From: a virus
DNA: 42,070 nucleotides
Direction: 5' to 3' (one strand)
Virus record (IMG/VR): IMGVR_UViG_3300034683_000027
Coordinates: 1 to 42,070 of that record
Shown here: one piece after another, positions 7,121-37,057 of the stretch
Numbering within the stretch: position 1 is the stretch's first letter
Layout of the letters: each line of letters starts with the position of its first letter
Position numbers and translations under genes: made by a program
Notes under the pieces: generated by a model
Databases searched by the model: none
What the model saw: the letters and a program-made list of their open reading frames with translations, nothing else
What the model was told of the DNA's origin: nothing

Positions 7121-7510
7121 TTACTTCTTGAGAATATTCGCTATCGTGGGAAGTACTTTTTCTGCACTACGTCCCATCACATACCCGCCAAGTCCAAGCT
7201 GTACAATATCCCAAAGTTTAAGATATTCTTCAACAGATAGATTAGGAGCCGCTATCCCAAACCAGCGAGCTACAATTAACGACGTAAATGTCAGCATTGT
7301 GATAGGTCGCCAAGAAGCTGCAAGCCAAGATTCAGAGGCAGCTTCTTGCTTAATAATAGCTGCACGTGCAGATAATTCTGTAAGTTCGCCTTTTTGGGCC
7401 ATCTCAAAAAGTTGCAATTTTGCTTTAGCTGCATCTTCTGGAGATGGCCACAGACGATCAATTAACTTACCGCCAATATCTAAAGCAGCAGTTACAGGAT
7501 CAAGGCTCAT
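7121..7510 (-). CDS. Holin, 3TM type
   Basis: This 129-residue protein starts with a short amphipathic helix (ALDIGGKLIDRLWPSPEDAAK), then an acidic/basic helix, then hydrophobic segments around WRPITMLTFTSLIVARWFGI (residues 67-86) and the IVQLGLGGYVMGRSAEK region (residues 102-118). The WRP motif, GGYV-GRS motif and size match the 3TM-type holin family of Gram-negative phages. Its start overlaps the endolysin stop by four bases, so lysis genes are translated together. It would permeabilise the inner membrane to release the endolysin. Confidence 0.8.
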   Translation of the reverse strand: MSLDPVTAALDIGGKLIDRLWPSPEDAAKAKLQLFEMAQKGELTELSARAAIIKQEAASESWLAASWRPITMLTFTSLIVARWFGIAAPNLSVEEYLKLWDIVQLGLGGYVMGRSAEKVLPTIANILKK

Positions 7511-19643: not shown

Positions 19644-19655
19644 CTGCATGGGTTA

Positions 19656-19740
19656 GTTTCTCTATATGCTAGATTTAGATGATTAATGATTACATGTTTC
19701 TCTATATGCTAGATTTATGCTAGATTTAGATGATTACATG
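19656..19740. repeat. Direct repeats in the divergent control region
   Basis: A 22-base repeat beginning GTTTCTCTATATGCTAG occurs at 19656-19677 and 19696-19717. Its 11-base end TGCTAGATTTA occurs a third time at 19718-19728. GATTACATG follows both blocks. The copies lie upstream of the leftward promoter -35 box. They could bind a regulator that switches between the early and late blocks. Confidence 0.6.
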
Positions 19741-19860
19741 TATTTATAAAAAGTTTAGAAATATTTGGGGATTGCTATAGGATACCACCTGCGCGACAGA
19801 CTAAAAAAGGTTCCCACCCCCCGGTAGTTGAGATTGATTATCATTTTCAATGTATGAGTC
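19741..19860. other. Non-coding middle of the divergent region
   Basis: No plausible gene is seen here. It contains A-runs, a short C-run and a GATTATCATTTTC stretch. I see no convincing terminator or promoter in this piece. Confidence 0.5.
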
Positions 19861-19989: not shown

Positions 19990-20130
19990 ATGAAAATGTC
20001 AGTTGCGGAAAAAATCAGAAGCAATGCAGAAGTGCATGGAGTTGCATTTGCCGCAGCAGTCGCGCGCAAACAGCGTATTCCATTCGATACGTTTTACTTT
20101 GTGATGTTTGGCAAATATCCAGTGCGCTAG
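19990..20130 (+). CDS. Small early protein (46 aa)
   Basis: ATG 19990 (MKMSVAEKIRSNAEVHG) has AAAGGAAA directly upstream; another in-frame ATG lies 12 bases earlier. The protein is basic and helical, ending VMFGKYPVR. It is the first gene after the early promoter, a place where phages often encode small host-takeover proteins. I do not recognise it. The middle (AFAAAVARKQRIPFDTF) resembles a short DNA-binding helix pair, but this is speculative. Confidence 0.65.
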   Translation: MKMSVAEKIRSNAEVHGVAFAAAVARKQRIPFDTFYFVMFGKYPVR

Positions 20131-20179: not shown

Positions 20180-20815
20180 ATGTCAACCTTTTACAATGTC
20201 GAATCGCTTAAAACCATCAGCAAGAAAGAAGTGCCGGCAGGAAATCGCCTTGCGCGTATCATCTTCAAAAAGGATCGCAAGACTGGAATTGAAAAAGATA
20301 GCAAAGGACTTTGGGTTGCTGAAATTTCATCCTCTTTACTTACTCTGATTAGCAATGATTCTCGCGGCGCGGAATTCTTGAAAGGAAAAATCGCAGAGGT
20401 GCAAGACTCGCTGATTCGCAAATTGGTAGAAGCGGGCAAGATTGTTATTAACTCTGATGAGATAGACTATGAGAAGATTCTCGCTGCAATGGCAGCTACT
20501 AATGAAAGTGTAAGATTTAGCAAGGAATCGATCGCGGCATGGTTTGGTGATTATCTGCGCGAACCGCTTGCCGATGCAATTAAGAATAAAATGGCTGGCA
20601 TATCAGAGTCTCAACTAAATAAACTACTTGGGAATTATCTTGAATCATTCCAGATTCTTGCACAGCGGCAGCCGAGTATGAGCAATGATATTAAAACTGG
20701 ATTGATTCGCGCAATGGAATTCTTGCCGGAAGATCATGACTCGGTGACTGCTTGCACTATTGCTAGTAAGCTAAGTGAAGTGCAGGAAGCTTCTGTTACA
20801 TTGGCTGCATTGTGA
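20180..20815 (+). CDS. Early protein of unknown function (211 aa), possible paralogue of the 26135-26776 gene
   Basis: ATG 20180 (MSTFYNVESLKTISKKE) has AAGGA eight bases upstream; a longer frame would overlap the 46-aa gene. A beta-like N-terminus with basic patches (RIIFKKDRKTGIEKDSKGLW) precedes a long helical part (residues 60-205). The helical part resembles that of the protein at 26135 in size and in spaced positions (KE..., DY, SE..Q, FQ, the I..L helix), suggesting a distant common origin. Function is unknown. It is followed by the large repeat-rich non-coding region. Confidence 0.75.
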   Translation: MSTFYNVESLKTISKKEVPAGNRLARIIFKKDRKTGIEKDSKGLWVAEISSSLLTLISNDSRGAEFLKGKIAEVQDSLIRKLVEAGKIVINSDEIDYEKILAAMAATNESVRFSKESIAAWFGDYLREPLADAIKNKMAGISESQLNKLLGNYLESFQILAQRQPSMSNDIKTGLIRAMEFLPEDHDSVTACTIASKLSEVQEASVTLAAL

Positions 20816-20842: not shown

Positions 20843-20924
20843 TTACAGGATAATGGGATGATGGTCTAACAGGATGCAATCCCGTTATCCTGTTATCCCG
20901 CCAGACTGTTATCCTGTTATCCCG
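20843..20924. repeat. ATCCTGTWA dyad repeat array, candidate origin or operator
   Basis: The nonamer ATCCTGTWA occurs inverted at 20843-20851 and 20867-20875, then direct at 20887-20895 and 20911-20919. Starts are 24, 20 and 24 bases apart, so the array is symmetric. A fifth copy is at 21227-21235. A 15-bp inverted repeat with one mismatch (20845-20859 and 20879-20893) and a 17-bp direct repeat (20884-20900 and 20908-20924) overlap it. The TTATCC cores resemble DnaA-box halves. Regular multimeric sites suggest a replication origin or a repressor cluster. Confidence 0.6.
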
Positions 20925-20965
20925 TGCCCCCTTCCCCGGACCCCCTCTCCGGCCAGTCGCCCAAA
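20925..20965 (+). other. C-rich strand-biased stretch
   Basis: The + strand is strongly C-rich here (for example GCCCCCTTCCCC), with a small CCGGA/TCCGG hairpin. It lies between the repeat array and an AT-rich stretch. No gene is seen. Such an asymmetric tract next to an AT-rich segment is reminiscent of origins. Confidence 0.4.
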
Positions 20966-20966
20966 T

Positions 20967-21158
20967 CTACCAGATGATATATCTATATATAGCTACCAAT
21001 AGTGTATATAGATATATTATTACCAGTAGGTATGTTTATAATTAATTTTTTAAAAGGAGGGTCTAATATACACATCTTCCACCTATGGCTCACTAATCTG
21101 GTAGATGCATATGGATATATGGGAGTTATAGATGCCATACATGATATGTAACTACCAA
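20967..21158. repeat. AT-rich region with CTACCA repeats and a 13-bp inverted repeat
   Basis: CTACCAG/A-type heptamers occur at 20967-20973, 20993-20999, 21020-21026 (TTACCAG), 21098-21104 (inverted) and 21152-21158. Between the first three lies a perfect 13-bp inverted repeat, ATATATCTATATA (20977-20989) and TATATAGATATAT (21005-21017). The segment to about 21055 is nearly pure A/T. A long frame on the minus strand here is not convincing. It could be a DNA-unwinding element with iterons. Confidence 0.55.
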
Positions 21159-21170
21159 CTGACTGACCTA

Positions 21171-21197
21171 TTGACACCGCCCTAAGTGGGGTATAGG
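21171..21197 (+). promoter_or_regulatory. Possible promoter for genes from 21261
   Basis: A perfect TTGACA (21171-21176) is followed 15 bases later by TATAGG (21192-21197). The short spacer makes it weak. It lies 64 bases before the next gene and would restart transcription after the repeat region. Confidence 0.35.
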
Positions 21198-21260
21198 CTA
21201 CGGGATAGCAGTCTAGCAGTCTGGTCATCCTGTAATCTGTTTTTTCTAGGAGTTTCAAAA

Positions 21261-22094: not shown

Positions 22095-23114
22095 ATGGCA
22101 AAGATTCTATGTTCAAAGTCTGGAATTCAATTCCAATGCGAGCACTTTCCAATTAGTTTCACTCAAAATGAAGTGCATCATCCAATATTTTCAGCATCCT
22201 TGAAACAATTATGGAAATACTATCCTAAGTGGCAAGCTGGAGAATTGAATTCAATTGATTCATATTTGCTATTTCTAGCATTACTGAATTCAACTGATTT
22301 AATAGAATTCCGTTGTGCAGCAATTAGGCATAATCATACTGATTCCATAGTATCATCTAACATGGAATCTCTTTATCGCACTCTCGGCCACATAGCCGCA
22401 ATTCGTAATCCTAGATTCATTCTTCCTCGCTTTGTTATCTCTCACGACACAAGAACATTGGCTAATGTAAAACATTGGCTAGAATTGTGGGAAGATAACT
22501 ATCAAGATTTTATGTCCGGAATGAAACAACAAGAATTAAAATCCAGACTCCAGAAAAGAGAATCAGCATTAGAGCGATTGATTAAAAATCCTGCAATTAA
22601 GCCGGAAAAATACTCACATTTGCTTGCAAATTGGGCATCAATTGCTGCTGAATTTCCTACATCAGAAACTACATTGCCAAATGGCACCAAAACTACAATA
22701 TCAGAATACTGGCAATCTATTATAATGAAATGCTACAATAGCATTGATATTATTCAAATTGAGAGAAAAGATTTAGTAGAACTAATCGAACATTGCGAAG
22801 AGTGGATAGAATTAGGCTCAATATTCTCATATCAATTATTCACAACATTGCGAGAAGGTCTTGATACAATCGATGGATTCTTCAATATTGGTAATCAAAC
22901 CACATTCGCAATTATAGGTGATGGAGATTCTGTAGAATCATCAAATCTCCAATTACTGATTAATTCTGCTCCAGCAACTGCGCCGAAAAGAACAGAATAT
23001 CCGACTGATTTTGCCTTCCTAAAAGCTAAGATGAAATGGAATCTTGCAAATGCATCTGCTGCATCTGCTGCATCTGCTGCTAATTCTGATAGCAACAACT
23101 CAGTTGATATTTAA
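22095..23114 (+). CDS. Large unknown early protein (339 aa)
   Basis: It starts MAKILCSKSGIQFQC after CAAAGGAGATTCTATAATC. Residues 6-15 have two Cys nine apart (CSKSGIQFQC), perhaps a metal site; the rest is mainly helical with ALERLIKNPAIKPEKYSHLL. The C-terminus carries three tandem AAS repeats (GCATCTGCT units) and a Ser/Asn tail, so it is disordered. Proteins like this accompany the replication genes of related phages as I recall, but with no assigned role. It is the largest unidentified protein of the early block. Confidence 0.7.
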   Translation: MAKILCSKSGIQFQCEHFPISFTQNEVHHPIFSASLKQLWKYYPKWQAGELNSIDSYLLFLALLNSTDLIEFRCAAIRHNHTDSIVSSNMESLYRTLGHIAAIRNPRFILPRFVISHDTRTLANVKHWLELWEDNYQDFMSGMKQQELKSRLQKRESALERLIKNPAIKPEKYSHLLANWASIAAEFPTSETTLPNGTKTTISEYWQSIIMKCYNSIDIIQIERKDLVELIEHCEEWIELGSIFSYQLFTTLREGLDTIDGFFNIGNQTTFAIIGDGDSVESSNLQLLINSAPATAPKRTEYPTDFAFLKAKMKWNLANASAASAASAANSDSNNSVDI

Positions 23115-30621: not shown

Positions 30622-31011
30622 ATGGCAGCACCGAGTAATAAATACAGACCGTATCTAACAATGCAGCAGATTAAATACTTTATTCAACTCGCTGAATCAG
30701 ACCAGAGAGCAGAGACTGAAGCACTGAGACTTAGATCGTTGCGAGAACTTAAACTATTCGTAGCTAAGTCTGATTTAGGCTTAGTTAATTCTGCACTTAC
30801 GGTAGTAGGCAAGCAATCAACTGAGGATAAGTTAGGATTTACTTCGGAATCAGGAGATACTCCAGAGCAGAAGCGAGAAAAAGCATATCAATTATGGAGA
30901 GTAAATCCACAGCTGTGTGATGATAATCAGATTCAGATGGCTAAACTTTATATGTACGAGAATGATTTAATGTCACCAGACGAGGAAGCAGAATATGAGT
31001 CAAGCATATAA
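30622..31011 (+). CDS. Unknown helical protein (129 aa)
   Basis: Begins MAAPSNKYRPYLTMQQIKYF after TAAGGAGAATCATA. It is helical and charged, with two weakly similar helix pairs; similar proteins occur in many phages without function. It overlaps the next gene by 17 bases. Confidence 0.65.
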   Translation: MAAPSNKYRPYLTMQQIKYFIQLAESDQRAETEALRLRSLRELKLFVAKSDLGLVNSALTVVGKQSTEDKLGFTSESGDTPEQKREKAYQLWRVNPQLCDDNQIQMAKLYMYENDLMSPDEEAEYESSI

Positions 31012-34892: not shown

Positions 34893-35357
34893 ATGCTTGT
34901 AATTAATATAGCTGGCAATGAGTGCCTATTCGACGACGATGATAGTTGGATAACTCGCTATTCAGTAGCAGTTGCTGACAATGGGGCAGGACATTTACGT
35001 CTAGTTTTTACGTCAGGTGAATTGGCTGGTAAGTATGTGGCAAGAGTTATACTAAATACGCCAAAAACATTACTAGTAGATCACATAAATCATAACCCAC
35101 TTGATAATAGAAAATGCAATTTACGCCACGCTTGTCACACACTTAATGCAGTAAATGCAGGTGTTCACAGAGATAAGAAGACAAAATTACCTAGAGGTAT
35201 AGATATTACAAAGTCAGGTAAATACAGAGCTAGACTTACAATAAAAGGTATTAGATTTACAATCGGCTTATACGATACTCCAGAAGAAGCTATAGCTTCT
35301 TACGAGAAAGATGCTAGGATATTTAATCCCGGATGGCATGATGGCTCAAAGAGATGA
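34893..35357 (+). CDS. HNH endonuclease with AP2-like DNA-binding domain (154 aa)
   Basis: The HNH core is VDHINHNPLDNRKCNLRHAC (approximately residues 65-84; His in DHI, then Asn, then the second His/Asn). After it, SGKYRARLTIKGIRFTIGLY and DTPEEAIASYEKDA form an AP2-type strand-helix domain. Related to the ORF at 36572 (see finding). It sits between polymerase and helicase genes; its end overlaps the helicase start by 20 bases. Likely a free-standing homing endonuclease. Confidence 0.88.
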   Translation: MLVINIAGNECLFDDDDSWITRYSVAVADNGAGHLRLVFTSGELAGKYVARVILNTPKTLLVDHINHNPLDNRKCNLRHACHTLNAVNAGVHRDKKTKLPRGIDITKSGKYRARLTIKGIRFTIGLYDTPEEAIASYEKDARIFNPGWHDGSKR

Positions 35358-36582
35358 TTTTATTTCCGCGTATTTAGCGTATATAGGTGAGAGCGAATGT
35401 CCTGCTACATTTAATAGATGGAGCTGTATCTCAATCTTAGGAGCTTGGCTAGGACGAAGATACAGTTTTCAGCTTGGTCATTTCAATATAGCTAGTAATG
35501 TATATTGTATGCTGATGGGTGGCGCCGGTTCTCGTAAATCTACAGCAATTAAAATTGCTACTAATCTTATACGAAAGGCAGGTTATGAAAACATAGCAGC
35601 AGAGAGAACTACTAAAGAGAAGTTCCTGATGGACTTAGCCGGCGAAGAATCAGCAATTGATTCTGGAGATATTATGGAACATAATCTTTTCGGCCCCGCA
35701 GAAACTACCAGTGAGATTCTTGTTGCAGCAGATGAATTTAATACATTCATTGGCAATGGTAATATAGAATTTCTCTCACTACTAGGAGTATTGTGGGATT
35801 ACTCAGGTCAATTCAGCGATAGAAAAAAGAATTCAAAGTCTTTAATAATATCTGACCCAACAGTCACAGTCTTATCCGGCAATACTGCAACTGGTTTTTC
35901 ACTTGCATTTCCAGCAGAAGCAATTGGTCAAGGTATTTTTTCCAGACTTATTCTTGTGTATGGAGAAAAGACTGATAAAAGAATTACATTTCCGGAGCCG
36001 CCATCACCTGAATCTGAGAAACTTCTCATTGACATACTAGCAGCTATCAGACAAGTAGCCACAGGTAAAGCAGATTTAACAGACGAAGCTAAGAAACTTC
36101 TCGATCACATTTACAAAACATGGAACGGAATCACAGATGTTAGATTTGATTCTTACGCCAATCGTCGCTTTTCTCATCTGCTTAAGTTGTGTCTTATTTG
36201 TAGCGCTGCGGCACTTCGATCAATTATTACTGAGGAGGACGTCATTTATGCTAATACAATTCTGACTCACGCAGAGCATTCAATGCCAAAAGCTCTAGGA
36301 GAATTTGGTAAGGCTAAGAATTCAGATATTGCCCACAAGATTATTCAGTTACTTGAGAATAGTGTATTGCCGATGCCAGTAAAACAAATCTGGAAAGCAG
36401 TACATAATGACCTAGAGGATATGTCAATGCTGAAAGATATACTGGGTAATCTAGTATTAGCAGATAAGGTTATTCAAACACAATCTGGATTCTTAGCAAA
36501 GCGTAGGATGCTGGAAGAAGTATCAACTGATGCAGTAGATTTTTCATTTCTCACTAATGAGGAGCGTCGCTATGTTGCATAG
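35338..36582 (+). CDS. DUF3987-like replicative helicase / ATPase (414 aa)
   Basis: The start is ATG 35338 (or 35341), overlapping the HNH gene; a longer frame begins 27 bases earlier. Walker A GGAGSRKST occurs at residues 61-69; Walker B is VAADEFNTFI near residue 138. A Gln/Asn-rich loop (LSGNTATGFSLAF) and GIFSRLILVYGEK are typical of phage DUF3987 proteins, a group of primase-helicase C-terminal-like RecA-fold ATPases. There is no separate primase motif. It should unwind DNA at the fork with the PolA-type polymerase. Confidence 0.78.
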   Translation: MMAQRDDFISAYLAYIGESECPATFNRWSCISILGAWLGRRYSFQLGHFNIASNVYCMLMGGAGSRKSTAIKIATNLIRKAGYENIAAERTTKEKFLMDLAGEESAIDSGDIMEHNLFGPAETTSEILVAADEFNTFIGNGNIEFLSLLGVLWDYSGQFSDRKKNSKSLIISDPTVTVLSGNTATGFSLAFPAEAIGQGIFSRLILVYGEKTDKRITFPEPPSPESEKLLIDILAAIRQVATGKADLTDEAKKLLDHIYKTWNGITDVRFDSYANRRFSHLLKLCLICSAAALRSIITEEDVIYANTILTHAEHSMPKALGEFGKAKNSDIAHKIIQLLENSVLPMPVKQIWKAVHNDLEDMSMLKDILGNLVLADKVIQTQSGFLAKRRMLEEVSTDAVDFSFLTNEERRYVA

Positions 36583-37057
36583 ATGTCAGTACCTTGGAGC
36601 AGAGCTTATATTTGATACGGAGGATATTGAACTTGTTCCTCTCATATCAACACTACTGTATAAACCTGATGGAACTCCAGACGCAGTAATTATAGCATTA
36701 CCTTCAGGAGAACGTATCAGAGTTCACAGACATATAATGGCAGCTCCTCCAAATATGTACGTAGACCATATAGATGGAAACTGTTTTAATAATAGTAGAA
36801 GTAATTTGCGCCTAGCTACAAATGCACAGAATCAAATGAATGCAAGACCTCATAGTGATAAGCAGTCTAAATTACCAAAAGGAGTAACTAAATCAAAATG
36901 CAATCCAAGCTATCCATATCAAGTAAGACTGTCTTGGAATGGAACGCGTATTCAAGTAGGTTACTTCAAAACTCCAGAAGAGGCTGAGGTAGCATACAAG
37001 AAAGCAGTAGAATTTTATCATGAAAATTTTTCTTATCATCTTTGTAGGAGCAAATAA
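36572..37057 (+). CDS. HNH endonuclease, second copy (161 aa)
   Basis: ATG 36572 (MLHRCQYLGAELIF) has GAGGAG eight bases upstream and overlaps the helicase stop by 11 bases. The HNH core VDHIDGNCFNNSRSNLRLAT and the AP2-type end (RIQVGYFKTPEEAEVAYKKA) align with the first HNH protein across the gene length. The pair brackets the helicase gene. It is likely a homing endonuclease. Confidence 0.87.
   Translation: MLHRCQYLGAELIFDTEDIELVPLISTLLYKPDGTPDAVIIALPSGERIRVHRHIMAAPPNMYVDHIDGNCFNNSRSNLRLATNAQNQMNARPHSDKQSKLPKGVTKSKCNPSYPYQVRLSWNGTRIQVGYFKTPEEAEVAYKKAVEFYHENFSYHLCRSK

Follow-up and report, generated by a model that had tools for sequence, protein, structure and literature searches.

Repeated sites near 20.9 kb of the virus record IMGVR_UViG_3300034683_000027 raise the question of what they serve, a sequence-only reading having proposed either a replication origin or a master operator whose binding factor also acts where the genes restart at 21.2 kb. 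The window analyzed here is the whole record of 42,070 bases, a podovirus-like genome. On its left side, the minus strand encodes the terminase, portal, capsid, and tail proteins; on its right side, the plus strand encodes a helicase, an exonuclease, a Sak4-like protein, a DNA polymerase, a primase, and a dCTP deaminase. Its close relatives are uncultured IMG/VR contigs. A DNA similarity search against named phages gave no match, and among such phages the nearest TerL proteins were those of Aeromonas phage P5 (39%) and the Pseudomonas 119X/PaP2 group (33%). Rfam and tRNA scans of the record gave no match.

The repeats had been described as a symmetric array of ATCCTGTWA nonamers overlapped by a 15-bp inverted repeat. 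All four nonamers were recovered at 20843(−), 20867(−), 20887(+), and 20911(+), with spacings of 24, 20, and 24, and the inverted repeat (arms 20845-20859 and 20879-20893, 93% complementary) lies inside the array, here called U. Counting the whole record, including the fifth copy already noted at 21227(+) and a stray sixth at 7492(−) in the late-gene region, six nonamers were observed against 1.07 expected, and six or more occurred in 0 of 100 shuffles. The array is real and above chance; the nonamer, however, is not its true unit, which is instead a grid of 8-bp boxes. Array U consists of four reversed boxes at 20844-20875 (in order, TACAGGAT AATGGGAT GATGGTCT AACAGGAT), a GCA centre at 20876-20878, and six forward boxes at 20879-20926 (in order, ATCCCGTT ATCCTGTT ATCCCGCC AGACTGTT ATCCTGTT ATCCCGTG). 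I-SceI-like text within it (CCTGTTATCCC at 20889 and 20913) is regarded as coincidence. CsrA-type GGA motifs, an idea that came from the likeness of CAGGAT to CsrB repeats, were discarded in view of the mirror symmetry of the arrays and of the change of letters to TTGGCA in relatives.

The nonamer at 21227 proved to be the final box in another array, L, which reads CGGGATAG CAGTCTAG CAGTCTGG TC ATCCTGTA, ends in an inverted box, and starts 1 nt past the −10 of a TTGACA-17-TAGGCT promoter (Table 1). Array U lies ∼245 bp upstream of this early promoter and is inverted relative to L, and the two are the sole triple-box clusters in the 42-kb record. The nine top scores of a three-box matrix (up to 27.2 bits) all fell at U or L, with at most 10.2 bits elsewhere in the record; on shuffled records, the maxima averaged 13.8 and went no higher than 17.6. 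Since the two places share the same boxes and the letters of both copies co-vary in relatives, the proposed action of one factor at both the array and the gene restart is probable; a "master" role acting genome-wide found no support, there being no further box cluster in the record. On the outward strand of U no promoter was found (6.4 of 12 consensus matches, versus 7.1 for random sequence and 9.5 for L), and U as a second, divergent promoter was rejected, having no −35/−10. Lacking a promoter of its own, U is not simply another leader. The T-rich tract after L may possibly form an attenuator together with the inverted box.

TABLE 1 Positions of the arrays, the promoter, and the genes considered
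Feature	Position	Strand	Remarks
46-aa protein gene	19990-20130		Small family, relatives in several loci of the clade
p211, early gene directly before U	20180-20815	+	Fast-evolving family, 30 of 31 loci
Array U, candidate upstream operator	20844-20926	.	Box grid; lag-8 periodicity of homologous arrays in relatives
C-rich stretch adjoining U	20927-20965	+	Contains CCTCTCCGGCCAGTCGCC; similar C-rich/GTCGCC text here in L043 and L011
AT-rich centre between U and L	20970-21061	.	50-nt window at 14% G+C; ends in TAATTTTTTAAAAGGAGGG
Element TAATTTTTTAAAAGGAGGG	21043-21061		Like the conserved element of relatives
Early promoter, sigma70-like	21171-21199	+	TTGACA 21171-21176, 17 nt, TAGGCT 21194-21199; relatives have a promoter at the same place
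Array L, candidate promoter operator	21201-21234	+	Three boxes, 2 bp, one inverted box
T-rich tract TGTTTTTTC after L	21239-21249	+	Such a tract in some relatives only
First gene past promoter, 63 aa	21261-21452	+	No family
p339, conserved early protein	22095-23114	+	Used to gather relatives
p211 paralogue, 213 aa	26135-26776	+	Hidden under a spurious minus-strand ORF
129-aa protein, KYRPYLT family	30622-31011	+	Weak candidate binder; in relatives usually downstream of the early promoter, first gene in several
HNH endonuclease genes, two	34893-35357 and 36557-37057		Either side of the primase gene

With p339 as the query, 58 loci were gathered, and the mirror pair was present in about 30 of these, on related uncultured phage contigs, in which the layout was kept while the box letters changed. 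In L010, L053, L014, L011, L013, and L043, a similar layout lies between the p211 gene and the next early genes: first, in several of them, a hairpin resembling a terminator, then a box array or an inverted repeat, an AT-rich stretch, a TTGACA promoter, and a second repeat at the transcript start, with ATCCTATT as the box letters in L010 and L053 and GCCAATT in L014 and L013. Array U of the relatives lies ∼240 bp upstream of the −35 and is nearly always inverted relative to L. Across 27 loci chosen by their U/L similarity, identity at a lag of 8 was 0.494 for L and 0.535 for U versus 0.27 for the controls (none of 5,000 shuffles), with 0.42 and 0.47, respectively, at a lag of 16 and 0.20 to 0.30 at other lags. 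Moreover, when promoters were picked from the leader side only, blind to U, the mean similarity was 14.3 when U and L were cognate and 9.0 when they were foreign to each other (none of 20,000 permutations). Scored with a box matrix trained on most of the same loci (consensus YRG[G/T][A/C]T-RR, 5.4 bits), the 20 loci with clear boxes had their best U on the strand opposite L in all but one case (19/20) and their L start at −6 to +18 nt from the −10 end. L064, L070, and L073, which were outside the matrix training, carry box pairs 269 to 300 bp apart that scored 18 to 24 bits against a null maximum of 11.2. The same layout with poor or no canonical boxes was seen in L058, L084, L098, and L100, and inspection by eye of Tiera and P5 phages revealed no clear module. 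In close relatives, a short ORF with a GTG start comes after the TAATTTTTTAAAAGGAGGG-like element.

We regard the module as real, conserved, and regulatory: each genome has two arrays, and their position, periodicity, mirror orientation, and co-diversification recur across the phages. Its two operators, read by a putative binder, probably switch the early promoter. By a modest balance of probability, we take U and L to be an operator pair for one phage-encoded, cooperative, sequence-specific DNA-binding protein, with L blocking the early promoter and U bridging to it by looping; we infer the protein binding, the phage coding of the protein, the repression, and the looping alike. The putative protein would assemble cooperatively on the contiguous 8-bp boxes, and, as L would cover the transcription start of the promoter with its TTGACA at 21171, protein on L would block initiation or escape. 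Array U would then be bridged to L, the intervening DNA folding into a loop that would tighten control of the rightward early operon, and the inversion of U would present the same face in an antiparallel loop. A constant layout with diversified letters is what would be expected if a regulator and its operator evolve together. A plain operator pair does not account for the AT-rich centre or for the conserved element that it holds.

The main rival to the operator pair is a replication origin, with U and L as iteron-like initiator sites flanking an AT-rich unwinding element, promoter transcription aiding the opening, and the promoter boxes serving autoregulation. We consider this rather unlikely, although all 31 centres have a 50-nt stretch at 6 to 26% G+C (for the median centre, only 11% of comparable stretches are as AT-rich), the centre of this phage has the composition of such an unwinding element (Table 1), and an element TAATTTTTAAAA-GGGG occurs in the centre of 11 of the 31 phages while being absent from 130,724 nt of flanks. 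In L061 and L062, moreover, the centre holds two perfect inverted DnaA boxes, TTATCCACA and TGTGGATAA, 15 nt apart and shortly after U; such boxes are missing from the other 29 of the 31 centres, this phage included. The resemblance to half of a DnaA box that had been pointed out is likewise not borne out here, as the module has no TTATNCACA, the sole copy in the record being at 22836 inside a gene. GC skew, which had been put forward as a check, shows no switch at the array and no clear extreme at 20.9 kb; it follows gene direction and is uninformative for an origin. Iteron origins, like P4 ori/crr, resemble the module in that short sites recur at two positions next to AT-rich DNA, but iteron spacing in plasmids is 17 to 22 bp, and the 8-bp spacing here is far below that. 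In addition, L is tied to the position of the −10, as expected of a promoter operator. An RNA mechanism, in which the U transcript would pair with the L leader as an antisense or anti-terminator or the arrays would act as RNA hairpins or attenuators, is improbable. The array RNA folds strongly (−42.8 kcal/mol; z, −4.8), U matches the complement of L at 21 of 25 positions in this phage, and a T tract follows L in this phage and some relatives. However, mismatches between U and L have no G-U bias (41 compatible versus 45 incompatible transitions), and this lack of wobble preference makes RNA pairing unlikely and favors recognition of double-stranded DNA. In several relatives a terminator-like hairpin lies ahead of U and sets it apart from the p211 gene, so transcription across U is probably low, and several have direct repeats with no evident hairpin; no terminator-like site was found at the array of this phage.

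Chance or neutral tandem duplication without function is scarcely credible: slippage can grow 8-bp repeats, and copy number does differ between close relatives (three forward boxes in L010, five in L053), but place, orientation, and relation to the promoter are constant in about 30 phages despite their different letters. Operators built on comparable lines are known. MetJ, a bacterial metabolic repressor, binds cooperatively to tandem 8-bp met boxes at promoters, which, unlike the boxes here, are palindromic and without an upstream mirror copy. Known users of contiguous 7- to 8-bp promoter repeats, such as MetJ and omega, belong to the ribbon-helix-helix class. The lambda-type OL/OR system likewise controls early transcription through two operator clusters with the same boxes and looping, but its sites are 17-bp palindromes ∼2.4 kb apart at two promoters, whereas the module has 8-bp boxes, one promoter, and a distance of ∼245 bp, and no CI/Cro-like gene was recognized among the early proteins scanned. 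As in looped two-operator repression, two copies of the same sites lie near one promoter, one of them over the start. The arrays are contiguous, non-palindromic short repeats overlapping a promoter (8-bp boxes near the −10 with lag-8 periodicity), and this geometry comes close to that of pSM19035 parS, where 7 to 10 contiguous non-palindromic short repeats overlap promoters and omega (ParB) binds with one dimer per repeat and high affinity for adjacent repeats only (PMC9499535). A partition or carrier-state site, with the arrays as centromere-like sequences that also control the promoter, as omega/parS does, is nevertheless quite improbable. The repeats here have 8 bp, against 7 in parS, and mirror copies stand around a single promoter; a search with the RHH_1 profile, with working controls, gave matches in 0 of 26 records. 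The cultured phage Shea (Jamesmcgillvirus) is reported to be an episomal pseudolysogen for which no lysogeny genes were predicted (PMC13348215), but it belongs to the PaP2/119X group and is only distantly related (TerL, ∼33% identical). At the matching place, 119X and 20Aug470 have CAAGGT...ACCTTG inverted repeats with a spacing of ∼10 to 13 bp, which are possibly an analogue only; in 119X (NC_007807.1) the ends of the record fall within this intergenic region, which is intact in 20Aug470 (L120 684-1253). The immunity operators and stoperators of mycobacteriophage L5 are, like the boxes here, asymmetric phage sites whose specificities diverge between relatives, but they are distributed genome-wide (PMC9283540, PMC6550527) rather than in two clusters.

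Several candidates were considered for the protein that would read the operator pair. PHROG and Pfam searches of the early proteins recognized no DNA-binding regulator family. The 151-aa protein with an HTH-like appearance was set aside, having been undetected in 26 related records by a single-sequence query. The p211 protein is predicted to be mostly helical and evolves fast (47% identity to L058, versus 71% for p339 and 78% for the p211 paralogue); most relatives hold both p211 copies, of which the module-side one evolves much faster (median identity, 0.27 versus 0.46). As a binder p211 was rejected, because its partial correlation with box similarity vanishes once helicase is also controlled. 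When p211 and p339 were modeled with AlphaFold, neither model had a convincing match in the PDB or a known fold. Box similarity tracks overall relatedness, and among the nine families compared, KYRPYLT alone clearly exceeds that relationship, with the best partial correlation (0.357; 1/1,000) after control for helicase and p339, which is modest evidence given that nine families were compared. In most of the loci with a KYRPYLT gene, this gene is no more than 5 kb downstream of the promoter; here the distance is 9.4 kb. It is absent from G001 and G016, whose modules (L058 and L084) have no canonical boxes, but present in other records without canonical boxes. The 129-aa KYRPYLT family is thus the best candidate for the box-binding protein, though a weak one on correlative evidence.

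We searched the literature for octamer repeats at early promoters of phages and for related terms, and the papers covered do not describe such a module. It is conceivable, and we suggest it only tentatively, that this is a new early-gene switch of a podovirus clade, in which a new protein class (perhaps KYRPYLT) recognizes, in two mirror arrays, 8-bp boxes that are specific to the phage and confers an immunity-like specificity on each phage. Were this true, phages without a recognizable repressor or integrase could owe episomal carrier states (pseudolysogeny) to the switch. The module, with its two arrays and one promoter, is a defined target for the study of early-gene control in these phages and would offer a starting point for the carrier state reported for the cultured, distantly related Shea (PMC13348215). 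Elsewhere in the record, the two HNH genes beside the primase gene are probably homing endonucleases, and direct repeats of TTTCTCTATATGCTAGATTTA at 19655-19745, between terS and the 46-aa gene, may belong to the divergent late/early promoter region.
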